A stretch of DNA of 64,000 nt, taken from the NCBI GenBank assembly GCA_021324445.1, contig JAJPJC010000050.1, positions 1 to 64,000 on the forward strand, given 5' to 3'. Under the pieces are notes generated by a model. It ran no database searches. It was not told the DNA's origin and saw nothing but the letters and a program-made list of their open reading frames with translations. The translations under genes and the position numbers were made by a program. Shown here in pieces: positions 1,602-60,828 of the stretch; within the stretch, counting starts at the first letter, position 1, and each line of letters begins with the position of its first letter. This DNA is from Isosphaeraceae bacterium. GTDB lineage: Bacteria > Planctomycetota > Planctomycetia > Isosphaerales > Isosphaeraceae.

Positions 1602-4600
1602 CTATTGGACAATCATCTCCCCGTTCATGACCATCCAGTGGCCGGGGAACGTGCAGAGATAAGGATACCGTCCCGGCGTCGCGGGGGCGCGGAACGAGAT
1701 CGCGAACTGATCCTGCGGGCCGACGATGTCGGTGTAGAGGAGCACGTCGTCGGTGCGGGGGATGTAGTGGCGGGTAGCGGCGTCGGGCTCGGCGATGATC
1801 TTGTTCACGAGGTCGCCGACGCGCGACAGGGTCCCGGGCTTGATCAGCGCCCAGTTGTGCGGCACGACGTCCGGGTTGAGGAACGTCAGCTTGAGCGGCT
1901 CGCCGGCGCGGACGGTGAACGATCGGACCGTGAAGCTCAGGTTCTTGCCGGCCTCGATGGTGATGGCCCGGGCGCCGCGGAGGTCGCGACGCCAGGGGTT
2001 CGGCGCCGGCTTGTGCGCCAGCGCGGCCAGGTCGGCGAGGATCGGGTGGGCGGCGATCGTCTTGGAGGCCGGTCGATAGCCCGGGAATCCCGTGAACGGC
2101 GCCGCCAGCCGATGCACCGTGGCGAACAGGTCCTGCGGAGGGCCCTCGTCCGGGCGCAGGTGCAGGTGGAGCTGGTTGACCGGCTGGAGGTCGGGGATCT
2201 CGAGGAACAGCGTGCGGCCGTCGGCCAGGACATGGGCCGAGCGGATCGCCAGCGGATCATGACCGGGCTGTCCCGGGTGGCGCGGGGCGAACTCGGGCGA
2301 GCCGTAGCCCGGGCTGTATCGGTAGTTCCAGGCCTGGGCGAAGTGATGGTCCGGCCGCTCGGCAAGACCGCGGTCCAGCGGCTGGACGAACGTCACCAGT
2401 ACTCCGTTCTCATGCGCGTGGAATTCCCGGGGCAGTTGGACGGGATCCCCCGTGTAGCGCACGCGCTGGAAGCAACCATCCGCTGAAGTATACGTGCCCC
2501 ACCCGGCCATCCCCGAGACGTAGAGCCGTCCGTCTCGGGGATTGAAGCGGCCTCGGTGCACTCCGGAGAGGAACTCGCCGGGCATTGGCACGACCGCTCC
2601 CTGGGGCTGCTCGCCCACCTTCTCGCGCAGCAGGAGGAAATACGTCCCGGCGCCGAAGGAGAGGTGCAGCATCTGGCCCCGGAGCGGGCCGAACCGGTCG
2701 TCCGGGACCGTGACCTGGGCACTGCTGGAGTTGTCCAGCCCGCGCGGGAGGTAGACCAACGGCAGGTCGGGAGGCTGTGCGGCCCGCGGTCCGAGAGAGC
2801 CGTAGTGACCGCCCGGCCGCACTTCACAGACCATCGACGCGGGAGTCCACTCCCCTTCGGACGCCGGGACGGTGAGCGTGCCGTCGGGGGCCAGCCCCAG
2901 GCCATCCGGGTTGCGGAAGCCGGTCGCCACGACCTCGACCTGACGGCCGTCGGCTGCGATCCGCAGCAGGCCCTGCTTGCCCGAGGCCGTGTAGAATCGC
3001 CCGGACGCGTCGCGCTGGAGTCCGCTGATGAAGTCATGGCCGGCGGGTGAAGTCAAGAAGCCGTTGCAGAAACACTCGTGGAAGTCGGCCTCGCCGTCGC
3101 CGTTCAGGTCGTGGAGCCGTGTGACCTGGTCGCGGCCAAGGACATAGACTTTCCCCTCGGCGACGACCAGCCCCAGCGCCTGGTGCAGCCCTGATGCGTA
3201 CCGCCGCCAGCGGACCTGTTGCAGTGTCTCATCCAGCCCGTCGACGCGCCAGACATCGCCCTGGATCGTGCAGAGCATCGCCGTGCCGTCAGGGAAGAAG
3301 TCGTGGTCGCCGAAGAAGAGCAGGGCCCTCCACGGGTTCTCAAACGGCGGCTGGATGGTGTCGATGGCATAGGGTCCCTGGCGGCCGAGCGTCCCTCGGG
3401 TCGTGAGCACCTGGGGCCATCGCCGCGGCCCGCCACCGCGCGTCAGGTGGGCGAGCGGATGGGTGTCCGCCGGCGCGACGAGCCGGGTGAACCGACCGCC
3501 TTCGGCCCAGGGTGCGTCGAGCAGTTCGACCTCGCCGATGCGGTAGGCGAAGATGATCCGGTTGCCGTGCCGGTAGAAGCCGTGGTAGACGAAGGGTTGC
3601 TCCGGCCGCCGTCCTTCGGGGCGGGGCAGGGGAGTGCCATCGAGAATCACGCCGTCGAGCAACCCGTGGCGCGTGGCTGAGAAGCGGAGGAAGCCGCCGC
3701 TCCAGACCGCCTCGTAACACAGTGTCTCGGGGTTGAAGCAGGCCGCCAGCTCGCCCCGATCTCCCAGCCGGACGCAGACGCCCTTGGGGACCGTCACGCC
3801 CGCGCCGTGGAAGACACCGCAAAGGACGTTCCCGAGATCGGTCCGGTTCCAGCGGTCGTCGGACCAGGTCGCTTCGTTCTGATTTCCCCAATGGCCTTGC
3901 TTCCCGCCGTCGAGACCAGGGAACGCCGGCAGGAGCGCGGGCATGGCCGGCTGTTTCCTGAAGAACTCGGCCTCCTTCGCGTAGAAGTCGTAGACGCGAT
4001 CCCGGTTGACGGCGAGCCGCCAGTTCGGCCAATGTTCCGGATGCAGTGGGGCCCGGTCGTACGAGAATGCGGCCGGCACCTGGGAATGACCGCGCACGTG
4101 ATCAGCCGATGACAGCCCCGGTCGCCCGAGCTCGAGCAAGAAACGGATCAGGTCGCGGCGCTGCGTGGGACTCATCGCCGCGGCCAGCCCGTCGGGCATC
4201 AGGGTGCCCTCAGAGCGGTTCTCCACGATCTCCGTCTTCAGGATGCGGATCGTTTGGCCGGTAGCTGGGTCGCGGAGCAACCGCTCCAGGCCGGTCTCGC
4301 CCTGGTCGTACCCCTGGTGGACCGTGCCGTCGGCCGTGGCCACGGTGATCGCCGCATACCCCGGCTTGACCTGCCGCCGGGGCCAGAGGACCGATTCCAC
4401 GATCTCTTCGGGCTTGAGGCAGACCCCGACGGTCGTCAGGTCGGGACCGACCGACCCGCCCTGGTCGCCGATGCGGTGGCAGGAGAGGCAGGCGAACTTT
4501 GGTGAGGCGAAGACGGCAGCCCCGCGCTGAGGATCACCCTCCCTGCGCGCGCTGCCGAGCAACTCGACGACCAGCGCGGGATCGAACGGCGCAGTCGAGC

Positions 4601-5627
4601 TGGAAGGACCGGCAGGAACAGGAGGCACGGGCGTCCGCGGCCTGGGCCGCGGGCCGGGGGGCTTGCCGTCGAGCTGCGGCACCAGCCAGTCCAGGCCATC
4701 GAGATTGTCGCGCAGCCGAGCCTCGGCATCGTCCACCGTATGGCCCAGGATGCCGATCGGGCCGCGATAGCCGCTGTCCCGGATGATCCGCAGCAGCTTC
4801 AGGTCCAGCGCGCCCTGGCCCAGCGGCAGGATCTTCCTCCCGATCCGGTCGCCGGCCGGATCCATGCCGTTGAGGTTCAGCGCCACGAGATAGGGCTTCA
4901 TCTTGGCGAGCCGCGCGGCGAAGCCGTCGAGATGGTCGTGGCCGTGGTGAAGGTTGTAGACCATCCCGACGTTCGTCACGCCCCGCCGCTTCAATTGTTC
5001 GATGATTGCGATCTGGTTCTCCGGCTCGCCGAACCAGCCCCCGTGGTTGTACAGGGCCAGCGAGCAGCCGATCGTCGCGGCCGCCTCGGCCAGCGGGCGG
5101 AGCTTGGCCGCGGCCCGCTCGACCCGTCGCTGTTGCTCCTCCCCGCCCACGCGATCGGACCCCAGGTCGAGGAGCACCCAGAGCTGGGCCTTGACCCCGT
5201 GGCGCTTGAGCGTCTCGAGGATGAGGCGCGACTCGCGGTTCAGCTCGCCCGGCGCGACCCAGAAGGCATCCAGCGCGATGCCGTGCCGCTTCAGGGCCTC
5301 GAGCTCGGCGTCGAAGGTGGGGATGTGCTCGGCGCGCCAGTCGTAGGCAAAGTGGCGGAATCCCAGGCGCTGGAGCATCGTCGCGCGCTCTTCCGGCCCT
5401 CGTTTCTTGCTGTCAAAAGGGACAATGCACCAGGCTACCAGATTGTCGCGGGCGAAGAGCCGATCCGGCCCGGCCGGCGCGCCCGTCGTGCGGGGCGGTG
5501 GGTCCGCGTCCCGTCCCGGAGGCGCGGCATCGGCGCCGGCCAGGAGCGCGCCGCACAGGTACACGATGCCGAGCCTGCCAGCAGGAGCAATCAAATTGAG
5601 AATGCTTTGGATGTAAGAATCCATCAT
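1602..5627 (-). CDS. Giant secreted fusion: TIM barrel, cytochrome c, beta-propeller, cupredoxin
   Basis: A 1341-residue protein with four recognisable parts. After a signal-like segment (about 15-35) comes a xylose-isomerase-type sugar epimerase TIM barrel (about 57-330). Next is a cytochrome c domain with one haem site, CLSCH (about 350-505). A middle region around KQGHWGNQNEATWSDDRWNR resembles, from memory, DUF6797 and leads into a sorbosone-dehydrogenase-like six-bladed propeller (about 760-1090). The C-terminus is a type-1 copper cupredoxin, with ligands in VPHNW and YLCTFPGHWMVMNG (His, Cys, His, Met). It probably acts in the periplasm on sugars or polyols and passes electrons to haem or copper. 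GGAAG precedes the start. The substrate is unknown. Confidence 0.8.
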   Translation of the reverse strand: MMDSYIQSILNLIAPAGRLGIVYLCGALLAGADAAPPGRDADPPPRTTGAPAGPDRLFARDNLVAWCIVPFDSKKRGPEERATMLQRLGFRHFAYDWRAEHIPTFDAELEALKRHGIALDAFWVAPGELNRESRLILETLKRHGVKAQLWVLLDLGSDRVGGEEQQRRVERAAAKLRPLAEAAATIGCSLALYNHGGWFGEPENQIAIIEQLKRRGVTNVGMVYNLHHGHDHLDGFAARLAKMKPYLVALNLNGMDPAGDRIGRKILPLGQGALDLKLLRIIRDSGYRGPIGILGHTVDDAEARLRDNLDGLDWLVPQLDGKPPGPRPRPRTPVPPVPAGPSSSTAPFDPALVVELLGSARREGDPQRGAAVFASPKFACLSCHRIGDQGGSVGPDLTTVGVCLKPEEIVESVLWPRRQVKPGYAAITVATADGTVHQGYDQGETGLERLLRDPATGQTIRILKTEIVENRSEGTLMPDGLAAAMSPTQRRDLIRFLLELGRPGLSSADHVRGHSQVPAAFSYDRAPLHPEHWPNWRLAVNRDRVYDFYAKEAEFFRKQPAMPALLPAFPGLDGGKQGHWGNQNEATWSDDRWNRTDLGNVLCGVFHGAGVTVPKGVCVRLGDRGELAACFNPETLCYEAVWSGGFLRFSATRHGLLDGVILDGTPLPRPEGRRPEQPFVYHGFYRHGNRIIFAYRIGEVELLDAPWAEGGRFTRLVAPADTHPLAHLTRGGGPRRWPQVLTTRGTLGRQGPYAIDTIQPPFENPWRALLFFGDHDFFPDGTAMLCTIQGDVWRVDGLDETLQQVRWRRYASGLHQALGLVVAEGKVYVLGRDQVTRLHDLNGDGEADFHECFCNGFLTSPAGHDFISGLQRDASGRFYTASGKQGLLRIAADGRQVEVVATGFRNPDGLGLAPDGTLTVPASEGEWTPASMVCEVRPGGHYGSLGPRAAQPPDLPLVYLPRGLDNSSSAQVTVPDDRFGPLRGQMLHLSFGAGTYFLLLREKVGEQPQGAVVPMPGEFLSGVHRGRFNPRDGRLYVSGMAGWGTYTSADGCFQRVRYTGDPVQLPREFHAHENGVLVTFVQPLDRGLAERPDHHFAQAWNYRYSPGYGSPEFAPRHPGQPGHDPLAIRSAHVLADGRTLFLEIPDLQPVNQLHLHLRPDEGPPQDLFATVHRLAAPFTGFPGYRPASKTIAAHPILADLAALAHKPAPNPWRRDLRGARAITIEAGKNLSFTVRSFTVRAGEPLKLTFLNPDVVPHNWALIKPGTLSRVGDLVNKIIAEPDAATRHYIPRTDDVLLYTDIVGPQDQFAISFRAPATPGRYPYLCTFPGHWMVMNGEMIVQ

Positions 5628-5814
5628 GGATCATACTTCCGAGAATATCAGTAAATGGACTCGATCCGACCGGCTTGACAGTCGCGGCAACGAGCTCTAC
5701 ATTCGGACCTTTACGAGCGTAGGGCCTGCTGGGCCCCCCGTCAACCACCCGCGACGGGATGTGCGGATCGAGGCGCCATCCCGATCCTCACCTCAATTCG
5801 ATGAGGCTCCCGCC

Positions 5815-7116
5815 ATGAAGACCGCCCCAGGGGTGACGCTGATCGCCAACGGCCAGCTTGTGGACGGGACGGGGAGACCGGCCGTCGCCGATGCGGCGGT
5901 GGTGATCCGGGAGGGCACGATCGCCTACGCCGGGCCGGCCCGCGGTGCGCCTGAGGTCCCGCCGGAGGTGCGTCGCCTCGACGCCCGGGGCGGGACCATC
6001 TTGCCGGGCCTGGTCGAGGCGCACTTCCACCCGACGTATTTCGACGTCGCCGAGCTGGCCGACCTGGACATCAAGTATCCGGTCGAGTATGTCACCATCC
6101 TGGCGGCGTGCAACGCCCGGCTGGCGCTGGAATGCGGCTACACGGCGGCGCGCAGCGGCGGCAGCCTGCATAACATCGACGTCTGGCTCAAGAAGGCGAT
6201 CGAGGAGGACCTGATCCCCGGCCCGCGGCTGGCGGCCAGCGGCCGCGAGATCTGCGGCGCCGGCGGCCTGATGGACTGGAACCCCGACCATCTCAAGCTC
6301 GGCATGGAGGGCCTGATCCTGCTGATCAACGGGCCCGACGAGGCGCGCAAGGCGGTGCGGAAGCTGGTCAAGGACGGCGTGGAGTGGATCAAGACCTATC
6401 CGACCGGCGATGCCGCCGCACCCGACACGGCCGACCATCACACCCTCTGCATGACCTTCGAGGAAATGGCCGCCGTGGTCTCCGAGGCGCACAACTACCG
6501 CCGCAAGGTGACCGGCCATTGCCGCGCGACCCAGGGGATCAAGAACGCGCTTCGCGCCGGCTTCGACTGCCTGGAGCACGGCACCTTCATGGACGGGGAA
6601 GCGCTCGACCTGCTGCTGGAGCGGAATACGCCCGTCGTGCCGGCGCTGCAATTCGAGCGGGCGAGTATCGAGAAGGGTCCGGCATTCGGGATGCCGCAGG
6701 CCGTGGTGGACGGGCACAAGGAGACGCTCGAGGGGGGCGCCGAGAGTGCCCGGATGATCCTCAAGGCCGGCGGCCGGCTCGGCATGGGCGGCGATTACGG
6801 CTTCGCCTGGAATCCGCATGGCGACTACGCGAAGGAGCTGACCTTCTTCGTCCGCGACGTCGGGTTCTCGCCGCTGGAAACGATCACCTGCGCGACGAAG
6901 ACCGGCGGCGAGATCATGGGCCGCGGCCACGAAATCGGCACCGTCGAGCCGGGCAAGCTGGCCGACCTGCTGGTCGTCGACGGCGATGTCCTCGCCGAGA
7001 TCGCCCTGCTGGAGGACCGCGCGCGGTTCCTCGCGGTGATCCAGGGGGGCGCGATCAAGGCCGGCCAGCTCGCGGCCGGATCGCGATCGACCGCACGTCC
7101 GGAGGCCGGGCGTTAA
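5815..7116 (+). CDS. Metal-dependent amidohydrolase (imidazolonepropionase/prolidase-like)
   Basis: A 433-residue member of the amidohydrolase superfamily. Metal-site features visible in order: the HxH motif in LVEAHFHPT, a lysine likely to be carboxylated in [13 protein letters not shown], histidines in KVTGHCRAT and CLEHGTFMD, and the late aspartate in [10 protein letters not shown]. The C-terminus [17 protein letters not shown] is the usual closing beta-sandwich. The start at 5815 (MKTAPGV) is chosen because the composite-domain strand begins there and GAGG lies upstream; an open frame extends back to 5626 but looks untranslated. It is divergent from the giant fusion. The substrate is not predictable; cyclic amides or Xaa-Pro dipeptides are typical. 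Confidence 0.85.
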
Positions 7117-8130: not shown

Positions 8131-10533
8131 TCATCTCGACGGGTCTGAGCCGGTCGGGTGGTGCGGTGGAGGCGGGGAGGGATTCGGTGGGGGGAGGACG
8201 GCGCGGCCATCGGTCCGGGTGAGTTCGGCGGCGCGCTGGGCGTCGGCCTGGTAGCGTGCCAGATCGCCGAGCTTGAGGTAAACCCGCGCGCGGGCCGCGT
8301 AACTGCGGGCATTGCTGGGATCGAGTCGGATCGCCTCGGTGTAGTCGGCGATGGCCCGATCGAGCTGGTTCAGGAGCGCATAACCAACCCCCCGGTTGTG
8401 ATACAGGCTCGAGGATGCGCCCGATTCCATGGCCCGAGTGAGCGCCGCGATGGCCTCCGCGGGCCGGCCGCAGGCCAGCAGGGCGAAGCCCCGGTTCTCC
8501 AGCTCTCGCGGCGGTTGGGCGGACACCTGGAGCCGGATCGTGGCCTCGGCCTGCCGGGAGCCGGCCCGGGCGATCATCCTCAAGGGCACTGTGGCGGCGG
8601 TCGCGTCCGGCCGCGCCACGGCCCGGGTCTCAGCCCGGCTCCGGCCCGCGGGGATCGTCAGGTCCGGCAGAGTGACACCTGGAGGAAGGCCCTCGAAATG
8701 GAGGGTCACCGGCCCCGAGTAGCCGCCGCGGGTCAACTCGATCGGCACCGGCACGCTCCGGCCGGCAGCCAGGCGTAACGTCTCCGGCAGAGTGAGCCGG
8801 AGATCCCCAGCGGACTTGGTCGCGGCGACCTCGGACCGCGACGGAGGTCCGGGCAGCGCGGGCAGGCCCGATCCGGCCGCCGGCAACGACGGCCCCAGCT
8901 CCGAGCTGCGCGGCGGAGGCGGCGTTGCTGGGAGGGACGGCCGCCTCTGGGCCCTCGGGGCCAGGTTTCCCGCTCCGGGTTCCGGCGGGCGCCGCCGGGC
9001 GGACCCCTGGTGGGCGATCCAGTCGTAACCGACGGTCCAAGCTCGGCGGATCAGAGGCGTCCAGAGGGCGAGACACCGTTCCAACGACGAGAACCGGGTG
9101 GGGAATCGGTCGGAACTCCTCGGCTCGGCCGGCTTCGAAGGGCCCAACAGCGGCGGTGGCGTCGGCAGCGGGGGCCGGACGGTCGCGCCCGGGGCGGACG
9201 GAGCGATGAGCCCCCGGGAGGACCGGGCCGCCACGGCTGCGGGGGCCGGCCTGCCGGACGCCGGGTCGAGGCGGACCGGCTCCGGGACGCGGATCTCGGC
9301 CACCGGCTCGGCGCGCCGCGGCGCGACGGCCGCCCGGCTGGCCATCTTCCACGACCAGAGGGCCACGCCCGCCGCCAGGATCGAAATCGCCACCAGGATC
9401 AGGCGGGGCACGCGTCTCGTGGCGGGGACGACCGTGCTCGCGGGGACCACCAGGGTGGGTGTGCATGAGGACTCGCCCATGGCCTGGTCCGACGCTTCGG
9501 CGAGCCCGAGCACCGCATCCCGAGAGAAAACGCTCACCGCGTCGACGGACAGGGACTCGGCCGAGATCGGTGTGGACTCCGCGCCGGGCTCGGCCAGGGG
9601 TGGGACCAGGACCGAGCCCGAGTCGGATGCGTCGTCCAGGACGTCCGCCCACATGGCCGCGAGCGACTGGGGCGAACCCCGAGCGGCTTCGGCCAGAGCC
9701 TGGATGAATGCCTGGCAGCTCGGCCAGCGCTGGGAGGGCGTCTTGGCCAGGGCCCGCGCCACGATCGGCCGCTCGGCCTCCGGGAGCAAGGCGAGATTGG
9801 GCGCGCCGAAGAGGTGCCCGTGCATCACGGCTGCCGCGGACCCTACGAACGGCAGCCGGCCGGTCCGGAGCTGGCAGTACGTCACCGCCAGCGAGTATTG
9901 GTCCGACGCGGCCGAAGTCTGGCGGTGGAACACTTCGGGTGCGGCGTAGGCGAAGGTCAAGCCGGCCGTGGGCCGCGACGCGCCGGACTGATCGCTCAGG
10001 CACGACAGGCCGAAATCGGCCACCTTCACACCCTGGCCGATGAGCATGATGTTCTGCGGCTTGATGTCGCGATGGCGGATCGCGACCCCGGATCGCCCCT
10101 CGAGCTGGTGCCGCGGCTCGTTGACAAAGTCGATCACCTGGGCCGCCTCGCCCAGGACTTCGAGCAACTCGCCCAGGGGAATCCCCGCCAGACCCTGGCT
10201 GGTTGCCTCCACGTAGCGATCCCAGAGCGAGCGATCCGCCAGCTCCATGCCGATGATCAGCCGGTCGTCGGACTGCCAGGCGCCGAAGTACGCCAGCAGG
10301 TTGGGGTGGCGGATTGCGCGGAGGACCCGCAGGCTGTTCCGCTCGCGCTGACCCAGTCCCCCGACCAGCGGGACGAGCTTCAGCGCCACCCGCAGCCCGC
10401 CCGGCGCCTCGGCACTCCAGACCTCCCCGGCTCCGCCCAGCCCAATCCGCTCCAGCAGACGATATCCAGGCACCGGCTCCGAACCGGGTCGGTCGCGCAC
10501 GTGCCTCGGAGCCGACGCTGTACACGCTCTCAT
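8131..10533 (-). CDS. Ser/Thr protein kinase with TPR tail
   Basis: An 800-residue protein. The kinase domain is N-terminal (about 22-285): glycine loop ERIGLGGAGEVW, ATP-binding K52 in VALKLV, catalytic HRDIKPQN (154-161), DFG at 173-175 and APEVF. A single transmembrane helix follows near residues 375-395 (LILVAISILAAGVALWSW). Beyond it lie a proline-rich stretch, an Ig-like beta segment and at least two TPRs (ALTRAMESGASSSLYHNRGV onward). The kinase is therefore cytoplasmic with an exported sensor/TPR region. The start at 10533 (MRACTAS) is favoured by an AGAGG site; an upstream ATG at 10560 has none. The catalytic residues are intact. Confidence 0.88.
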   Translation of the reverse strand: MRACTASAPRHVRDRPGSEPVPGYRLLERIGLGGAGEVWSAEAPGGLRVALKLVPLVGGLGQRERNSLRVLRAIRHPNLLAYFGAWQSDDRLIIGMELADRSLWDRYVEATSQGLAGIPLGELLEVLGEAAQVIDFVNEPRHQLEGRSGVAIRHRDIKPQNIMLIGQGVKVADFGLSCLSDQSGASRPTAGLTFAYAAPEVFHRQTSAASDQYSLAVTYCQLRTGRLPFVGSAAAVMHGHLFGAPNLALLPEAERPIVARALAKTPSQRWPSCQAFIQALAEAARGSPQSLAAMWADVLDDASDSGSVLVPPLAEPGAESTPISAESLSVDAVSVFSRDAVLGLAEASDQAMGESSCTPTLVVPASTVVPATRRVPRLILVAISILAAGVALWSWKMASRAAVAPRRAEPVAEIRVPEPVRLDPASGRPAPAAVAARSSRGLIAPSAPGATVRPPLPTPPPLLGPSKPAEPRSSDRFPTRFSSLERCLALWTPLIRRAWTVGYDWIAHQGSARRRPPEPGAGNLAPRAQRRPSLPATPPPPRSSELGPSLPAAGSGLPALPGPPSRSEVAATKSAGDLRLTLPETLRLAAGRSVPVPIELTRGGYSGPVTLHFEGLPPGVTLPDLTIPAGRSRAETRAVARPDATAATVPLRMIARAGSRQAEATIRLQVSAQPPRELENRGFALLACGRPAEAIAALTRAMESGASSSLYHNRGVGYALLNQLDRAIADYTEAIRLDPSNARSYAARARVYLKLGDLARYQADAQRAAELTRTDGRAVLPPPNPSPPPPHHPTGSDPSR

Positions 10534-11014
10534 GGTCGACCTCTGCCTTGCAGCAGTCATGAGCCAGTGGTCGGTCGTCAGTGCCGATCACTGAAGGACC
10601 GACCAGAGGTCTGTGAGGAGGCTCCGGCCCGGGGCGCTCCGGCTCCTGGCAGCTCCTGGGTGCGGTCAGCGCCTTCAGTCTCCCTCCACCCCAAATCCCG
10701 GCGCGACCCCCGTGCTCTCCCGGCGTGTCTGGCTATTCCTGAATCTGGGGAGCCAATGCACATCTCGTACCGCCGGGATTCACCTCGTGGCGCGGCTGGT
10801 TCCGACCTGAGCGATCGCCTCCATCTCGGGACGAGATCAGGCGCCGCGTTTGCTCATCCTCCGCGGGTAATTATTATCTACGATCGAAGTGGGTGCCTGG
10901 GTGCGCAACGGCCGGACCGAACGATCCATGAGGAAGGGAGTCGGCTCTTGTAGGAATCCGGCTGTGATGCCATGATCGCAGGAGGGGCCGTGGGCGGAGC
11001 GCGGGGGTGTATCG
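10534..11014. other. Divergent intergenic region, nothing recognised
   Basis: About 480 bases separate the kinase start (minus) from the PAC2 gene (plus). I see no convincing gene, RNA or repeat. Both flanking promoters should lie here. TAATTATTATC around 10867-10877 is the most AT-rich stretch. Confidence 0.3.
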
Positions 11015-11965
11015 ATGGCAAGCGAGCTGAAGCTCAACAAACCATGGTTGGTCGCGGTCTGGCCCGGGATGGGGAACGTGGCCATCAGCGCCGGCTACTA
11101 CCTGGTGACGAAGCTCGAAATGCACATCCTGGCCGAGTTTTCGGCGCACGAGTTATTCGACGTGGAGCACGTCGAGGTCAAGGCGGGTCTGATCCGCACC
11201 GGCCGCTTGCCGCGCAGCCGGTTCTTCGTCTGGAAGGATCCCAAGGGGAAGCACGACCTGGTCGTGTTCATCGGCGAGGCCCAGCCGCCCAAGGGGCGGT
11301 ATCCGTTCTGCCACCGGCTGATCGAGTTCGCGCGGCAGCTCGGCATCGAGCGCGTCTACACGTTCGCGGCCATGGCGACTTCGATGCATCCACAGCACCC
11401 CGCGCGCGTCTTCGGCGCGGCGACCGACGAGGAGAGCCTCGCCGAGTTGAAGCGGCTGGAGCTGGAGATCCTCGAAGACGGTCAGATCGGCGGGCTCAAC
11501 GGCGTGCTCCTGGGCGTCGCGGCCGAGAGCGGCCTGCGCGGCGCCTGCCTGCTGGGAGAGATGCCCCACATCTTCACCCAGTTCCCGTTCCCCAAAGCCT
11601 CGATGGCCGTGCTGGAAGCGTTCGCGAGGATTGCGCATCTCGAGATCGACCTGGGCGAGCTGGCCGAGCAAGCCCAGGAGGTCGAGCACAAGCTGGGTGA
11701 GTTGCTGGAGAAGGTCGAGGAGGCCCTGGAACAGCAACAGTCGGCCTCTGAGGACGAGGCGACCCATGAAGACGAGGCGACCCAGCTCGAGGCGACCGAG
11801 GCGGAAGGCCCCAGTCCGGAGGATCAGCGTCGCATCGATCATCTCTTCGCCCAGGCCCGGCAGGACCGCTCCAAGGCCTACGAGCTGAAACGCGAACTCG
11901 ACCGCCTCAACCTGTACAAGGATTACGAGGATCGATTCCTCGACCTCTTCAAGAAGCCGGGATGA
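11015..11965 (+). CDS. PAC2 family protein (proteasome-assembly-chaperone fold)
   Basis: A 316-residue protein whose first 215 residues match the PAC2 family: KPWLVAVWPGMGNVAISAG, then AHELFDVEHVEVKAGLI, VVFIGEAQPPKG and RVYTFAAMATSMHP, with GLNGVLLGVAAESGLRGACL later. The C-terminal third (about 225-316) is charged, Glu-rich and likely coiled coil (LGELLEKVEEALEQQQ). PAC2 proteins resemble proteasome assembly chaperones and are conserved in bacteria with unclear function; many actinobacterial and planctomycete copies have this acidic tail. The stop overlaps the start of the next short reading frame (ATGA). Confidence 0.85.
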   Translation: MASELKLNKPWLVAVWPGMGNVAISAGYYLVTKLEMHILAEFSAHELFDVEHVEVKAGLIRTGRLPRSRFFVWKDPKGKHDLVVFIGEAQPPKGRYPFCHRLIEFARQLGIERVYTFAAMATSMHPQHPARVFGAATDEESLAELKRLELEILEDGQIGGLNGVLLGVAAESGLRGACLLGEMPHIFTQFPFPKASMAVLEAFARIAHLEIDLGELAEQAQEVEHKLGELLEKVEEALEQQQSASEDEATHEDEATQLEATEAEGPSPEDQRRIDHLFAQARQDRSKAYELKRELDRLNLYKDYEDRFLDLFKKPG

Positions 11966-12057
11966 AGCCTTGCCAACCTCGTCACTCCTGCGGATCAACC
12001 GCGACCGAAGCTGGTGATGCCCTGGAGACCGACTTCCGCAAGCCCAGCGGAGCGCTC

Positions 12058-12363
12058 ATGAGGGAGATTCACGTCCTCACCGGGCTGATCGTCGTCCTGG
12101 CCGTTCCCTTCCTCGCCGAGGCGATGCGCCGGGGACTCGGTCGCGCCCTGGCCGCGACGGCGGTCATGGCCACCTGGCTGGGGGTCACTCTCTCCGCGAT
12201 CCGGCGATCCGCCAACCCCTGGAGTGCCGGCGAGGGAGCCCGCGACTATGCCCTGGTCATGACCCTGGTGCTGGTCCTCTATTTCCAGGGCAGGACCTGG
12301 TTCGCCAGGCGCGATCGTCCCGTCGCCGCCCCCGAAGCGCGATCCCTCGTCCCGGATCGGTAA
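12058..12363 (+). CDS. Small predicted membrane protein
   Basis: A 101-residue frame starting MREIHVLTGLIVVLAVPFLA. It shows three hydrophobic segments (about 5-20, 28-43 and 62-76) with Arg-rich connections, consistent with a small inner-membrane protein. The same frame stays open back to 11962, overlapping the PAC2 stop, so translational coupling with PAC2 is possible. I do not recognise the family, and coding status rests only on hydrophobic pattern and position. Confidence 0.4.
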   Translation: MREIHVLTGLIVVLAVPFLAEAMRRGLGRALAATAVMATWLGVTLSAIRRSANPWSAGEGARDYALVMTLVLVLYFQGRTWFARRDRPVAAPEARSLVPDR

Positions 12364-12815
12364 TCCCTCCCGCTGTCGACCCCGAGCGATTCTCCGGTCT
12401 CCACCATCCGATCGAGCTTTCCCAAACACCGGGATCGATGCCAGCCCGGCGGCCGTGACCTGAGGTCATCAGGAATTTCCTGGTGCTTTAATAAGGATAA
12501 TACCACTTGAATGGCGGAGATATTGTCCTAACATGGCGAACAGACCTCGTTGCAATGGTGCAAGGGTCATGCGTTGGCGGCCTGTTGGAACCGCAGTGGG
12601 AACGAGCCGGGGCAGCGAGCGGGTCGGCCGTCCGAGGGATGGCCGGGGCTCTGTTCGGGAAACCGAAGATCGATCCGGACCTTGGAGACTCCACCCGGGA
12701 TCATCGGTGAGGACCGGGTCTCTGCTCGAATCCTCAGGCGACCGTCGACGGGCAGGATTGCCGCATCTCGTGAGGTTGAATCGTGGACTGATATCGTCGC
12801 TTGGGAGCTGACTCC
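12364..12815. other. Intergenic region upstream of the sigma factor
   Basis: About 450 bases with no supported gene; short open frames here look spurious. The stretch TTTAATAAGGATAATACC (about 12487-12504) is AT-rich and may hold a promoter, but no clear -35/-10 pair was found. Confidence 0.3.
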
Positions 12816-13850
12816 ATGATCCGTCTTATTGAGGCTGAAGCATCGCGGTTTGAGTGCGGGCTGAAGGCGACGGGAGACCTACCGCGTCGATCGGGGCTCT
12901 CCGGCGCGGAAGAGCGCGGGCTGGCGGCCCGGATCGCCACCGGCGATCGGGAGGCCCGCAACACATTGGTGCAGGCGAACCTGGGCCTGGTGCCCCTGGT
13001 GGCGCGCGGTTACTTGGGACTCGGTTTAATGTGGGAGGACCTGGTGGGGGAGGGGAACCTCGGCCTGATCCGAGCGGCCGAGGCGTTCGTACCCAGCTTC
13101 GGCACCCGCTTCAGCACCTATGCGACCTATTGGATCATGGATGCGATCCTGGCGGCCTTGCACAACACGACGTCGACGATCCGGGTGCCGGCCCACATGG
13201 TCCGGCTGCTGTCCAGGTGGCGGCGGGCGGAGCACGCGCTGAGCAGCGCGGCGGGGCGCCCACCGAGCTTCGACGAGGTCGCCGCGGCGCTGGGGCTCAG
13301 CGAGGAGCAGAAGAGCCTGGTCGCCAAGGCCCGCCATGCCGGTGGGGTCCGGCTGGAGAGTGGCCTGGCCGCGGGAGCGCACCCCGGATCGGCCGAGAAC
13401 GCGGTCGACGACCACGACGGGCCGGACGCCCTGCTCGAGGCGGTGGAGGAGCGCGAAGCGCTGCGGCGGCGGCTCGATCGCCTGGATAGCCGCGCCCGGA
13501 CGATCCTCACCTGGCGTTACGGCCTGGAGGGCGAGCCGCCGATGACCCTCAAGGAGATCGGGCGCCGGCTGGGGCTGACCAAGGAGTGGGTGCGCAAGAT
13601 CGCCCGCGACGCCCTCGACAAGCTCGTCCTGAGCACGGACCCCGGCGGCGCCGCGATCGCACCCCGAGGGCCCTGCCCGGCCCGCCACCGCACCGCAACG
13701 CCGACGCCGCCGGCTCCAACCGGTCCGTCCACGTTCCCTCGACCCGAGCTGCCGGGCGATCCAACCAGAGCGCTGCCGCACTCCACGGGTTGCCGCCGCG
13801 AGTCGGGCTCGATCCCGCCTCAGCCGGGCTACCTCGCCCGCTGCGGCTGA
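12816..13850 (+). CDS. Sigma-70 family RNA polymerase sigma factor
   Basis: A 344-residue group-2-like sigma factor. Region 2 is clear (about 49-115): NLGLVPLVARGY, WEDLVGEGNLGLIRAAE and RFSTYATYWIMDAI, which includes the core-binding and -10 recognition helices. Region 3 includes RPPSFDEVAAALGLS, and region 4 is RTILTWRYGL then MTLKEIGRRLGLTKEWVRKI, the -35 helix-turn-helix. The ATG at 12816 has GGGAG about 8 bases upstream. The last 75 residues are Pro/Arg-rich and low-complexity, unlike the family, and may be an unfolded tail or translation past an older end. The regulon is unknown. Confidence 0.88.
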   Translation: MIRLIEAEASRFECGLKATGDLPRRSGLSGAEERGLAARIATGDREARNTLVQANLGLVPLVARGYLGLGLMWEDLVGEGNLGLIRAAEAFVPSFGTRFSTYATYWIMDAILAALHNTTSTIRVPAHMVRLLSRWRRAEHALSSAAGRPPSFDEVAAALGLSEEQKSLVAKARHAGGVRLESGLAAGAHPGSAENAVDDHDGPDALLEAVEEREALRRRLDRLDSRARTILTWRYGLEGEPPMTLKEIGRRLGLTKEWVRKIARDALDKLVLSTDPGGAAIAPRGPCPARHRTATPTPPAPTGPSTFPRPELPGDPTRALPHSTGCRRESGSIPPQPGYLARCG

Positions 13851-31225: not shown

Positions 31226-31763
31226 GTGCGCCGCTTTGCGGCTTGAGTTGATCCCCGAGCAACTCGGGAAGGGTTGAGCGTGATACCCTTGGGCCACCGG
31301 ACCTACCTGAAGGCGAAAGCTAGAGGGGAAAGCAGCATGTTCGGAAAGGCTGGATACAGCGAAACCACCAAGCTGTATGCCGGTCGAGGCCCGGACGGTA
31401 TGGTGAATGCTACACTGCATGAACCCAAGTATCCACACTCGAAACAGCAGGGCTTGGACACGGTGGTTGACGTCCAAGAGCTTCCGAGACATCCAGCAGA
31501 GGATGAAGGCTGGCAAGGGGATGGCTTGGTAGTCGCCATTCCTAACACGCTCCGAGGAAGCTGGGTTGCAACAGGCAACCTCAAGGATACGAAATGGGCA
31601 CCTACAGCCGTCCTGAACGTCACTCAAGCACGAAATGCGGGATCGCCTACGGGGCGAGAGCCCTATGGCGACGGAGCCTCCGTAGTAGTCGGAGCCAGGG
31701 AAAGCCTGGTACATGGCGAAGGGAGGCAGGTGAGTCGGGTGGGAGCCTGTGGAGGTACGTGTG

Positions 31764-33641
31764 ATGCGTAACGCCGACACGGTGCTGACCATCCATCAGG
31801 ATCGAGGGTCCAGGGGTCTCCCCCTGGAGCGTGTCTACAAGCATCTGTTCGACCCGGAGTTCTTCCTTCGTGCCTACGGTAAGATTTACCGGAATGCCGG
31901 AGCGATGACGAAGGGGTCCACCTCCGAAACGGTGGATAGTATGAGCCTCCAGAAGATCCACGACATCATCGCCCTGCTCCGACAGGAACGGTATGTCTGG
32001 ACGCCGGTTCGCCGGACGGAAATTCCGAAAGCGAACGGGAAGATGCGACCGCTCGGAATTCCTACATGGAGCGACAAGCTCGTGCAGGAAGCCTTGCGGA
32101 CGCTCCTGGAACCCTACTACGAACAGCGGTTCAGCGACCACTCGCACGGCTTTCGACCAAACAGAGGACCACACACGGCCCTCCAGGAGGTCCGCAAGAC
32201 GTGGAAGGGGACGGCCTGGTTCATCGAAGGTGATATCAAAGGATGCTTCGACAATATCGACCATTCGGTCTTATTGGAGATTATCCAGCGAGACATCCAC
32301 GATGGCCGGCTCATTCGGCTGATCGACGGCCTGCTCAAGGCTGGGTACATGGAGGACTGGAAGCGGCGAGATACCTTCAGCGGAACTCCGCAGGGTGGTA
32401 TCATCAGCCCACTCCTGTCCAATATCTACCTGAACGACCTTGATCGGTTTGTCGAGGACACGCTCATCCCGGCGTATACGAAAGGGGCGTCACGACGGAC
32501 CAATCCGGCATACAATCGGATCAACAACGAGTTGCAACGGGCACGCAAGGCGAACGATGTCGAAGCCATCGGACGACTGAAGCGAGCCATGTACAACACG
32601 ATGTCCATGGACTCGATGGACCCGGATTACCGCCGCTTACGCTACGTTCGATACGCCGACGACTTTCTCTTGGGATTCGCTGGTCCAAAGAAGGAGGCTG
32701 AGGCCATTCGAGATCGACTCTCGGAGTTCTTGAACGAAAAGCTCAAGCTCCAGTTGTCGATCGAAAAGACCCTCATCACCCATGCGGTCGATGAGAAGGC
32801 CAAGTTCCTGGGCTACGAGATCACAGTGTCGAGGGCGAACACCCTCATCACCAAAGACGGGAGACGACGGTCAAACGGGTGCATCGCACTTCTGATGCCC
32901 CGACCGACCATCGCTAAAGTCCTCGGTCGTTACAGCAGTGGAGGCCAGATTCTCCATCGCCCGGAACTGGAACCAGATGATGATTACACGATCATCATGC
33001 GATACCAATCTGTGCTCCAGGGAATCTACAACTACCACTGCATGGCAACCAACGTTGCCAGACGTATGGCCCACATCAAGCACATCCTGGAAATCTCTCT
33101 GACTAAGACGCTTGCTCACAAGCATCGCATCAGCGTCACGGAGGTCTACAGGAAATACAGGTTTATCGATCGAGTCGATAACCGTATGTCGCTTAGGGTC
33201 ATCGTGCAACGACCGAACAAAGATCCGCTCCTGGCGATCTTTGGAGGATTCCCGCTTGAGAGAAAGCCGGACGGGTTGGGAGGCAAGGATTTCGACTTCG
33301 ACGCATCATGGTTCCAAGCAGGCAACAACCGCTCTGAGATCGTCCAAAGGATGCTAGCTGAAAAATGCGAGCTATGCGGTGCCGAAGGCCCTGTCCAGAT
33401 GCACCATGTTCGCAAGCTAGCTGATCTGGATCGAGCAGGACGGGCTACGAAAGCTACTTGGGCAAAGATCATGATCGCTCGAAAGCGAAAGTCCCTGGCG
33501 GTCTGTACGGATTGTCACAAAGACATCCATGCCGGTCGCTACGATAGACCATCACCTGCGAAGCTCACTGGAGAGCCGGGTGCGGTGAAAGTCGCAAGCC
33601 CGGTTCGGGGAGGGGCGATTGGAAAAGGAGCCGTAAGATGA
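31764..33641 (+). CDS. ltrA: Group II intron reverse transcriptase/maturase with HNH domain
   Basis: A 625-residue intron-encoded protein. Reverse transcriptase blocks are clear: NGKMRPLGIPTWSDKLVQEA, FIEGDIKGCFDNIDH, GTPQGGIISPLLSN and the catalytic YADD (297-300, RYVRYADDFLLGF). The maturase/X region follows, and the C-terminus has an HNH endonuclease (CELCGAEGPVQMHHVRKLAD, then CTDCHKDIHAG). It aids splicing and drives retrohoming. GGAGG lies upstream of ATG 31764. Unusually, the frame does not stop before domain V: codons run through it (TGEPGAVKVASPVRGGAI) and end inside domain VI at 33641. Confidence 0.93.
   Translation: MRNADTVLTIHQDRGSRGLPLERVYKHLFDPEFFLRAYGKIYRNAGAMTKGSTSETVDSMSLQKIHDIIALLRQERYVWTPVRRTEIPKANGKMRPLGIPTWSDKLVQEALRTLLEPYYEQRFSDHSHGFRPNRGPHTALQEVRKTWKGTAWFIEGDIKGCFDNIDHSVLLEIIQRDIHDGRLIRLIDGLLKAGYMEDWKRRDTFSGTPQGGIISPLLSNIYLNDLDRFVEDTLIPAYTKGASRRTNPAYNRINNELQRARKANDVEAIGRLKRAMYNTMSMDSMDPDYRRLRYVRYADDFLLGFAGPKKEAEAIRDRLSEFLNEKLKLQLSIEKTLITHAVDEKAKFLGYEITVSRANTLITKDGRRRSNGCIALLMPRPTIAKVLGRYSSGGQILHRPELEPDDDYTIIMRYQSVLQGIYNYHCMATNVARRMAHIKHILEISLTKTLAHKHRISVTEVYRKYRFIDRVDNRMSLRVIVQRPNKDPLLAIFGGFPLERKPDGLGGKDFDFDASWFQAGNNRSEIVQRMLAEKCELCGAEGPVQMHHVRKLADLDRAGRATKATWAKIMIARKRKSLAVCTDCHKDIHAGRYDRPSPAKLTGEPGAVKVASPVRGGAIGKGAVR
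33573..33606 (+). ncRNA. Group II intron domain V
   Basis: A 34-base hairpin with the conserved GAAA tetraloop (GCGGTGAAAGTCGC) and flanking GAGCCGGG/CCCGGTTC stem. It is the catalytic core of the intron ribozyme, and both stem halves are intact. Confidence 0.9.
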
Positions 33642-33679
33642 CAACCATCTACGGCCACCTCGCTGGTCGCCTACTCTAC

Positions 33680-34426
33680 CACAACGGCCTCGCCGAGGAG
33701 CGGATGGGGAAAGCCCTGGCCGAGGGCGGACGCCGCGACAAGGTCTTCCTCATGACCAAGGTCTGCGGCCGGACCGCCAAGGAGGCCCAGACCGACCTCG
33801 AGGACAGCCTCCGCAGGCTCAAGACCGATCGCATCGATCTGTGGCAATTTCACGAAATCGTTTACGATAATGACCCCGACTGGATCTTCGCCCCGGACGG
33901 AGCCTTCCAGACTGGGCTGAAGGCGCTGAGGGAGGGGAAGGTCCGCTACCTGGGCTTCACCGGGCACAAGGATCCGATCATCCATCTGAAGATGCTGAGC
34001 ATGCCCTACGAGTGGGCCAGCGTGCAGATGCCGCTCAACGTGATGGACGTCCACTACCGGAGCTTCCAGCGGAACGTCCTGCCGGTCTTGCTCCAGCGCA
34101 ACATCGGCGTCCTGGCGATGAAGAGCCTGGGGGGCACCGGCGTGATCGTGAAGGAGGCGGGAATCCCCGTCGCGGATGCGCTGCGCTACGTGCTCTCCTT
34201 GCCGATCTCGACCCTGGTCTCGGGCATCGATTCGGAGACGGTGCTCGAGCAGAACCTGAAGATCGTGCGCGAGTTCCGGCCGATGACTCCCCCGGAGCGG
34301 GCCGCCCTGGAGGGCCGGACGCTGGCGATGGCCGGCGATGGCCGGTACGAGCTGTTCAAGTCGTCGAAGCTGTTCGACGGCCCGGTCCATCGCCGGCAGC
34401 ACGGGTTCTCGACTCAAGTGGGGTGA
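33680..34426 (+). CDS. Aldo/keto reductase, exon 2
   Basis: The remaining 248 codons of the split reductase, resuming at CACAACGGC (His-Asn-Gly) after the intron. Counting from the spliced start, K124 (VFLMTKVCG) and H155 (DLWQFHE) complete the catalytic tetrad with D92 and Y97 of exon 1. The rest is normal: GKVRYLGFTGHKDP, VMDVHYRSF, NIGVLAMKSLGG and GIDSETVLEQNL. An ATG at 33638 opens the same frame but its first 14 codons are intron sequence. Because all catalytic residues and the frame are preserved across the junction, the gene should work if the intron splices. Confidence 0.87.
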   Translation, partial: HNGLAEERMGKALAEGGRRDKVFLMTKVCGRTAKEAQTDLEDSLRRLKTDRIDLWQFHEIVYDNDPDWIFAPDGAFQTGLKALREGKVRYLGFTGHKDPIIHLKMLSMPYEWASVQMPLNVMDVHYRSFQRNVLPVLLQRNIGVLAMKSLGGTGVIVKEAGIPVADALRYVLSLPISTLVSGIDSETVLEQNLKIVREFRPMTPPERAALEGRTLAMAGDGRYELFKSSKLFDGPVHRRQHGFSTQVG

Positions 34427-60634: not shown

Positions 60635-60828
60635 ATTCCAGATTCCAGATTCCACATTCCAAATACAAAATCGAAAATGTAAAATTGTCTTATTCCAGAT
60701 TCCAGATTCCACATTCCAAATACAAAATCAAAAATGTAAAATTGTCTTATAATATATAAATTTAAATATATAATTAATATAATTTTATATCTGGAATCTG
60801 GAATTTGGAATCTGGAATCCAGGATTCC
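60635..60828. repeat. 57-base tandem duplication in an ATTCCAGA inverted repeat block
   Basis: Two 57-base units (60635-60691, 60692-60748) differ by one base. Each begins with ATTCCAGATTCCAGATTCCA and ends AAAATGTAAAATTGTCTT. After an AT-only stretch (60749-60787), the right arm (60788-60828) repeats TCTGGAATCTGGAATTTGGA and similar. The block is strikingly AT-rich against the genome and uses the same words as 21676-21764. Confidence 0.85.

Follow-up and report, generated by a model that had tools for sequence, protein, structure and literature searches.

What might a single, apparently exported protein do that carries a sugar-isomerase-type barrel together with a c-type haem domain, a propeller and a type 1 copper domain? 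The question is raised by a gene near the start of the 64,000-nucleotide stretch analysed here (the window; contig JAJPJC010000050.1 of an Isosphaeraceae bacterium, assembly GCA_021324445.1), for which the initial annotation had described one 1341-residue chain made up of a xylose-isomerase-like barrel, a CxxCH cytochrome, a propeller and a His-Cys-His-Met cupredoxin, and had taken this to suggest direct oxidation of a sugar with internal electron transfer. The single open reading frame (ORF) is indeed present on the minus strand, the plus-strand reading of its frame being interrupted by stops, and all four named parts are there, the propeller by model; a DUF6797 domain lying between the haem domain and the propeller had been missed, so that the protein has five parts and not four. 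The analysis established the domain order and its conservation, a leader of the kind seen in exported proteins, haem and copper motifs that are intact, the loss of the canonical metal ligands of the barrel, and the recurrent fusion of the barrel to redox partners. The answer favoured below, tentatively and with somewhat less than even confidence, is that of an exported sugar-processing redox enzyme, in which the propeller would oxidize the sugar, the carriers would take up the electrons and the barrel would reshape the keto product.

Domain order, export leader and recurrence of the fusion

Four of the parts listed in Table 1 are recognized by domain searches, namely the barrel by AP_endonuc_2 (PF01261; residues 158-310, E 4e-11, 43.4 bits against a cut-off of 31.1), the haem domain by TIGR02603 of NCBIfam (81.1 bits against 68.15), and the DUF6797 domain and the cupredoxin by the Pfam models DUF6797 (E 4e-13) and Copper-bind (E 8e-9). 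For the propeller no Pfam model scored above its cut-off, DUF7133 reaching 21.3 bits against 27 at residues 810-897, and TIGR02604 of NCBIfam (residues 813-894) stayed far below its own, with 26.8 bits against 122.2. The presence of the barrel and two electron-carrier domains on one chain, as initially annotated, is upheld by these searches. A c-type haem implies export. In a crude test, made with no signal-peptide predictor, 78 of 80 homologous loci had a hydrophobic 12-mer ahead of the barrel, as against 0 of 80 control stretches of 75 residues beginning within the barrel; judged by these sequence features, the fusion protein is apparently exported, to the periplasm or to the surface.

A chance ORF or an assembly artefact was ruled out by the domain order being conserved among relatives, and the fusion is not due to chance, since the same order recurs in the Isosphaeraceae at 66-81% barrel identity. 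In the family sample of 45 genomes (a search at the level of the order drew the same 45), a barrel match was found in 41 at E 1e-5 and in 36 at E 1e-20, and 22 of these 36 were confirmed to have the five-part order (the genome of the window, 14, and 7 more), in one of which (L101) the contig end falls inside the cupredoxin. Among the remaining 14, the locus is interrupted by contig ends in G018, G020, G024 and G044, consists of the barrel and a LamG domain only in G010 (L102), and is a barrel alone, as far as seen, in G004, G005, G039, G040, G041 and G042; G016 and G043 have long frames, whose domain order was left outside the 22/36 count. In G031 (L099), the barrel and the rest of the fusion lie in different, overlapping frames (8705-10015 and 9433-12852), which may reflect a frameshift, a sequencing error or a split gene.

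In the phylum sample (392 genomes, barrel threshold E 1e-20), the barrel was found in 28, two of them Isosphaeraceae. The 18 regions from outside the family contain the five-part order in 6, that order without the haem domain in 2 and the barrel alone in 8; in another such region (L070) the barrel is joined to a LamG and a terminal haem domain. Separate versions had been described as known in planctomycetes, and they do occur, as stand-alone barrels and as overlapping neighbours in L080, where the barrel gene adjoins a gene for haem, DUF6797, propeller and cupredoxin (the latter stopping at the contig end), and in L141, where it overlaps a neighbouring redox gene.

Table 1. Window coordinates of the fusion gene, of its parts and of the gene next to it
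Feature	Coordinates	Strand	Remarks
Whole gene, 1341-residue fusion protein	1602..5627	-	Stop codon 1602-1604; ORF and domain searches
N-terminal hydrophobic export segment, signal-peptide-like, residues 1-50	5478..5627	-	Read directly from the sequence
Xylose-isomerase-like (AP_endonuc_2) TIM barrel, residues 55-325	4653..5465	-	Non-canonical pocket
TIGR02603 haem c domain, residues 364-497	4137..4538	-	CxxCH at residues 380-384 (4476-4490)
Conserved region with DUF6797 domain, residues 520-720	3468..4070	-	Pfam match at residues 629-704
Six-bladed beta-propeller, about residues 750-1062, putative quinoprotein-type dehydrogenase	2442..3380	-	Predicted model
Azurin/auracyanin-type cupredoxin, residues 1222-1341	1605..1964	-	Type 1 copper ligands H1257, C1325, H1330, M1334
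Amidohydrolase gene, Xaa-Pro/Xaa-Arg dipeptidase-like	5626..7116	+	Divergent from the fusion gene

An altered pocket in the barrel

The barrel was modelled with a predicted local distance difference test score (pLDDT) of 93.9, and Foldseek matched it to superfamily members with a probability of 1.00. The best chain was YcjR, a 3-keto-D-glucoside 4-epimerase (6wn6; E 2.4e-11, template-modelling (TM) score 0.67-0.71, 17% identity), closely followed by many other isomerases and epimerases; as the 50 entries listed for the structural matches span only Z 19.2 to 21.0, YcjR is the best label and not a unique one, and families missing from such fold-match lists are not thereby excluded. When the barrel was compared with a Spirosoma isomerase, the match was too weak to be of use.

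Canonical members of the superfamily bind a divalent metal by a Glu-Asp-His-Glu quartet at the ends of strands 5-8, and this quartet is visible in the aligned canonical sequences. It is not retained in the window barrel, which, aligned with MJ1311 and with a canonical barrel of its own genome, has Tyr193, Asn225, Asn251 or Asn253 (two alignments disagree on the third ligand) and Leu294 at these positions; across 81 aligned barrels Tyr193 is found in all, Asn225 in 79, Asn251 and Asn253 in 80 each and Leu294 in 77. Invariant in the same 81 are D72, R76, R81, Y95, D96, R98, E108, W123 and W150, as well as Y193, N194, H195, W198, H227, H228 and H230. The conservation at W66-D72 and N225-H230 is partly chosen, because the 80 named loci (the best 80 of 573 encoding stretches in a scan of GTDB genomes) were picked by a match to either of two peptide patterns, AWC[IV]VPFD or V[YC]N[LFQ]HH[GA]H. 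A set of 42 barrels free of such selection (genome-search matches, the window and one plasmid barrel) has W66, D72, Y193, H195, N225, H227 and H228 in all 42, N194 in 41 and H230 in 40.

In the secondary structure of the model, each of the eight strands has one of W66, Y95, W123, W150, Y193, N225, N251 and L294 at its C-terminal end or close to it, and the conserved residues, placed by model strands and alignment columns, lie at or just past these ends, which is where a TIM-barrel fold of this kind holds its active site. The possibility, raised in the initial annotation, that metal and catalytic residues are missing from all homologues holds for the metal ligands, replaced in nearly all of those examined, and fails for the catalytic residues: because a different residue set is near-invariant, the barrel looks alive, with an active site of its own kind. 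As a redox site the barrel was ruled out by its membership of an isomerase/epimerase superfamily together with the replaced metal ligands, and it is not likely to be where the oxidation occurs.

Haem and copper carriers

The remainder of the chain (residues 355-1341) was modelled with a pLDDT of 88.0 and a predicted TM score (pTM) of 0.81. The haem motif reads C380-x-x-C383-H384, and C380, C383, H384 and M477 are present in all 27 sequences compared (the window and 26 scoring at least 60 bits to the haem hidden Markov model (HMM)), M477 being the probable sixth haem ligand. A structural match of this domain is Kustd1711 (7zs0; Z 16.8, root-mean-square deviation (rmsd) 3.9 over 144 residues), and the cupredoxin matches auracyanin A (Z 18.5, rmsd 1.5 over 118 residues, 30% identity). 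Its His-Cys-His-Met ligands, correctly recognized in the initial annotation, have azurin-like spacing, with H1257 in 26 of 26 sequences and C1325, H1330 and M1334 in 25, the one other row being gapped. The alignment sets of the haem, propeller and cupredoxin parts may contain ORFs other than fusions; haem matches below 60 bits were left out of the larger alignments (those with 81 barrels), and a 38% identity filter in the 42-sequence analysis removed weak haem matches such as L070 and L104.

Apparent exchange of redox partners

By record titles, the 80 named loci belong to Planctomycetota, Verrucomicrobiota and Hydrogenedentota, Singulisphaera acidiphila DSM 18658 and Chthoniobacter flavus Ellin428 being among the hosts, and their partner classes were assigned by HMMs built in this analysis. 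The barrel is alone in 25, one of which (L161) has it fused to an aldo/keto reductase, and is joined in 35 to the DUF6797-propeller unit with varying carriers. These 35 comprise haem-DUF6797-propeller-cupredoxin chains (15, and 2 more with LamG), LamG-DUF6797-propeller chains with a cupredoxin (5), with cytochrome c (7) or with no carrier called (2), and four others (L169, and L146, L143 and L184, which reach contig ends). The three inspected barrel-LamG-DUF6797-propeller chains of about 2000 residues (L129:7866-13862, L136:4173-10145 and L150:7818-13595) have five CxxCH each, so that L136 and L150 do contain haem motifs in spite of being rows with no carrier called; no CxxCH was found in L168, of the LamG-DUF6797-propeller-cupredoxin type.

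In a further 11 of the 80 (6 plain, 5 with LamG), the barrel is fused to a pyrroloquinoline quinone (PQQ) alcohol dehydrogenase domain and cytochrome c, all 11 being confirmed by Pfam at E 2e-117 or better; examples are L170:7923-10898 from Chthoniobacter flavus, L123, L144 and L187. The partner is LamG with haem in 5 loci, LamG only in 3, all running to contig ends (one, L128, also matches DUF7133), and haem in 1, which is incomplete. Large ORFs of 1285, 934 and 807 residues in L068, L069 and L131 were not counted as new fusions because GC-rich frames stay open, and no Pfam match was found outside the barrel in those of L068 and L069.

On a barrel tree made by a quick method, with 25 of 77 forks open, 8 rows unlabelled and L173 assigned by hand to the propeller group despite having its parts in different frames, the four partner labels require 17 changes against a shuffled mean of 31.5, none of 200 shuffles being as low, and the starred branches force at least 5 changes of the PQQ-dehydrogenase label. 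Repeated exchange of the redox partners of the barrel is therefore the apparent history; the tree is weakly resolved and does not separate gain from loss. The recurrence of the barrel with unlike redox enzymes suggests a coupling to sugar oxidation, for which it is the best evidence, and is a strong clue that in phyla living on carbohydrates this oxidation is coupled to an isomerase-fold reaction outside the cytoplasm. The sugar oxidation initially proposed stands as a theme, through the 11 PQQ alcohol dehydrogenase fusions and the likeness of the propeller described below, but its assignment to the barrel is not supported.

Proposed mode of action and competing explanations

In the favoured model of an exported sugar-processing redox enzyme, the six-bladed propeller, with the DUF6797 region, would oxidize a sugar or glycoside in the manner of a quinoprotein dehydrogenase, following which electrons would flow within the chain to haem c and type 1 copper, in either order, with the copper delivering them to the respiratory chain. 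The barrel would perform proton chemistry (epimerization, isomerization or beta-elimination) on the substrate or the keto product, by analogy with YcjR and with the similarly folded eliminases of 3-keto-glycosides, although it is without their usual metal site. A bolder version of this, which has to be regarded as rather unlikely, sees in Planctomycetota and Verrucomicrobiota an exported sugar machine that first oxidizes its substrate and then reshapes or cleaves it, with a quinoprotein-type dehydrogenase connected on one chain to haem and copper carriers and a metal-free barrel enolizing the keto-sugar. If true, glycosides would be broken outside the cytoplasm by oxidation followed by elimination, a logic known from separate dehydrogenases and eliminases (excerpts of PMC10628242 and PMC7676230), and the superfamily would gain a new catalytic class with this barrel as its first member. 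A barrel working without metal would change the picture of a well-studied superfamily. The repeated fusions provide a defined test set, made up of one barrel with a near-invariant altered pocket and several alternative electron-transfer outfits.

The assignment of the oxidation to the propeller draws on its resemblance to PQQ sugar dehydrogenases (2ism, Z 19.2, rmsd 3.0 over 275 aligned residues, 22% identity; 3a9g, Z 19.0; 3das, Z 17.9) and on conserved residues, H864 and R905-N906 being present in 38 of 38 sequences and R1055 and R1057 in 36, with 2 gaps; E924 is also conserved. According to excerpts of PMC6881789, PQQ is contacted in AA12 by a catalytic His, an Arg-Asn pair and further Arg residues, two of the Arg being common to bacterial enzymes, and H864, R905-N906 and R1055/R1057 resemble this set; it has to be noted that only the Arg-Asn stretch (GFRNP) was aligned to a GSDH protein (from L153, matching PF07995), H864 lying outside that alignment. 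A paralogue of 1066 residues in the same genome (L191:1224-4424) has two CxxCH and a propeller region, with no barrel or cupredoxin seen.

Several observations weigh against the favoured model. Other propellers fit as well or nearly so (PknD, Z 19.8; the designed Pizza, up to 19.7; SMP30, 17.2), the window protein has no match to PF07995 at E 0.1 in Pfam, a PDB sequence search with the propeller profile found no PQQ enzyme, and the Asn of GFRNP is not universal in the wider family, since the paralogue has GFRAP. Taken by itself, the PQQ-dehydrogenase label shows no clear clustering on the barrel tree (9 changes, with 55 of 500 shuffles as low), which fits repeated exchange but also a poorly resolved tree. 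YcjR-like or eliminase-like chemistry may not apply to a barrel without the usual metal site, and the recurrent amidohydrolase neighbour described below has no obvious role if the substrate is a plain sugar. Finally, pqqE was over cut-off in none of the 45 Isosphaeraceae genomes. Its absence is weak evidence, because that search, in which 14 control genomes also gave 0, had no positive control of its own, and because six carriers of the PQQ-dehydrogenase fusion without pqqE are, by title, metagenome-assembled genomes; they are among 12 of 13 further genomes with no pqqE over cut-off, the thirteenth, Chthoniobacter, scoring 494 bits, by which the pqqE model is seen to work. PQQ use by the propeller is unproven and a supply from outside is possible; were the propeller a quinoprotein in hosts without pqqE, PQQ would be a shared vitamin.

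The best-surviving alternative, unlikely but to be taken seriously, is that the propeller is a lactonase or a binding propeller, which together with the barrel would bind or convert a sugar oxidized beforehand elsewhere, the haem and copper only shuttling electrons for an unknown partner enzyme. Its attractions are that the NHL propeller PknD ranks above the PQQ enzymes, with SMP30/gluconolactonases about 2 Z below, that no family genome has pqqE over cut-off, and that Pfam-confirmed alpha/beta-hydrolase genes lie between the amidohydrolase and barrel genes in L128, L130, L148 and L184, two alpha/beta hydrolases beside barrel genes having below-cut-off matches to enol-lactonase models, while one stand-alone barrel has an SGL (gluconolactonase-type) gene nearby. 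Against it stand the clear PQQ alcohol dehydrogenase domains that replace the propeller unit in 11 of the 80 relatives, and the conserved residues resembling those of AA12.

It is improbable, although the loss of the canonical metal ligands and the LamG-type, lectin-like domain adjoining the barrel in many relatives would fit, that the barrel has no catalytic function and serves to bind sugar or to dock, targeting the redox part to a glycan: the positions invariant in 81 sequences, partly pattern-chosen, include at least 16 that are polar or aromatic, and these cluster at the strand ends, and barrels occur fused to an aldo/keto reductase, in one case, or standing alone, one of them in a sugar-utilization cluster on a Spirosoma plasmid together with genes annotated as SusC/D-type, GH5, Gfo/Idh/MocA, PhyH, GH140 and ThuA.

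Less probable again is a barrel that binds metal via new ligands (e.g. H195, H228, H230, D96 and H296) and acts as a metal-dependent 3-keto-glycoside eliminase or epimerase. H227, H228 and H230 are invariant, and H195, invariant in the 81 barrels, stands two residues beyond Y193, the lost first ligand, just as, in excerpts of PMC10628242, catalytic His134 of AtOGE follows ligand His132, an equivalence of position only, AtOGE being outside the alignments. Asn and Tyr, as found at the old site, are however poor metal ligands.

Genomic neighbourhood

Next to the fusion gene, and divergent from it, the amidohydrolase gene probably starts near 5815, and its product has L-Arg carboxypeptidase Cc2672 and Xaa-Pro dipeptidase as nearest solved chains. 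Of the 80 named loci, 12 have a relative of it upstream of the barrel gene, 69-80% identical to the window protein among the eight matches listed; 7 of these loci are in Planctomycetota, all divergent, and 5 in Verrucomicrobiota, all co-directional. That this neighbour points away from a sugar, to a substrate containing an amide, peptide or lactone, is very unlikely, since the five verrucomicrobial loci are close relatives and not independent, and the amidohydrolase adjoins the barrel gene in only 3 (the genome of the window, G026 and G010) of the 13 among 45 Isosphaeraceae genomes that have it at E 1e-80.

The sugar-utilization cluster around the stand-alone Spirosoma barrel, mentioned above, speaks for the sugar-processing model. 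PF06439 (DUF1080, 3-keto-disaccharide hydrolase) has 24-40 matches in each of 7 genomes and is over cut-off in 3 of 14 controls, which makes a 3-keto-sugar economy plausible in the hosts without tying it to the fusion gene.

An ORF immediately follows the fusion gene in L176 (9059-10450, DUF1501 by Pfam) and L179 (6466-7977), and members of its cluster are present in the flanks of 10 of the 80 loci. Elsewhere in the window, a group II intron-type reverse transcriptase/maturase with an HNH domain is encoded at 31734-33638 on the plus strand, in the 2-kb bin of lowest GC (32001-34000, GC 0.568), and two near-perfect (98%) copies of a 57-bp tandem repeat occupy 60635-60750.

Comparison with known systems

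No description of this fusion, and no paper on DUF6797, was found in the open-access literature searched. Nitrous oxide reductase, which also has a propeller followed by a cupredoxin and made up the majority of the leading Foldseek matches to the C-terminal model, was ruled out as a relative by poor TM scores (0.11-0.17 on the query) and by the type 1 ligand set, His-Cys-His-Met with a single Cys; the CuA site of such a cupredoxin has two Cys ligands.

The propeller resembles the PQQ soluble glucose/aldose sugar dehydrogenases (GSDH; 2ism, 3a9g, 3das) in its six blades, and its Arg-Asn stretch aligns with a GSDH-matching protein, but the fusion is without a PF07995 match and its propeller is embedded with DUF6797, barrel, haem and copper domains. 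In its proposed working scheme, with no homology being claimed, the fusion resembles the fungal quinohaemoprotein pyranose dehydrogenase CcPDH (AA8-AA12-CBM1), which has a sugar-oxidizing propeller and a haem domain on one chain and comes from a host for which no PQQ synthesis is reported; as far as excerpts of PMC6881789 go, CcPDH differs in carrying haem b instead of haem c and is described without barrel or cupredoxin.

For the barrel, YcjR has the same fold, and AtOGE is a TIM barrel that acts on a dehydrogenase-made keto-sugar, as is proposed for the fusion; LgdB1 and LgdB2, annotated as sugar phosphate isomerases, likewise act after a 3-dehydrogenase (excerpts of PMC10628242 and PMC7676230). 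AtOGE and PuCGE, both 3-keto-glycoside beta-eliminases, require Mn2+ (excerpts of PMC10628242), whereas the canonical metal ligands of the fusion barrel are replaced and the fusion looks exported.

With the PVC-type haem-binding CxxCH proteins (TIGR02603/TIGR02604) and Kustd1711, the fusion shares a haem domain over the TIGR02603 cut-off, but it is far under that of TIGR02604 and has an added barrel and cupredoxin. Its cupredoxin has all four ligands, as in auracyanins A and B and azurin, but is part of a multidomain, enzyme-like chain. The protein is a new combination of known parts, with an altered barrel.

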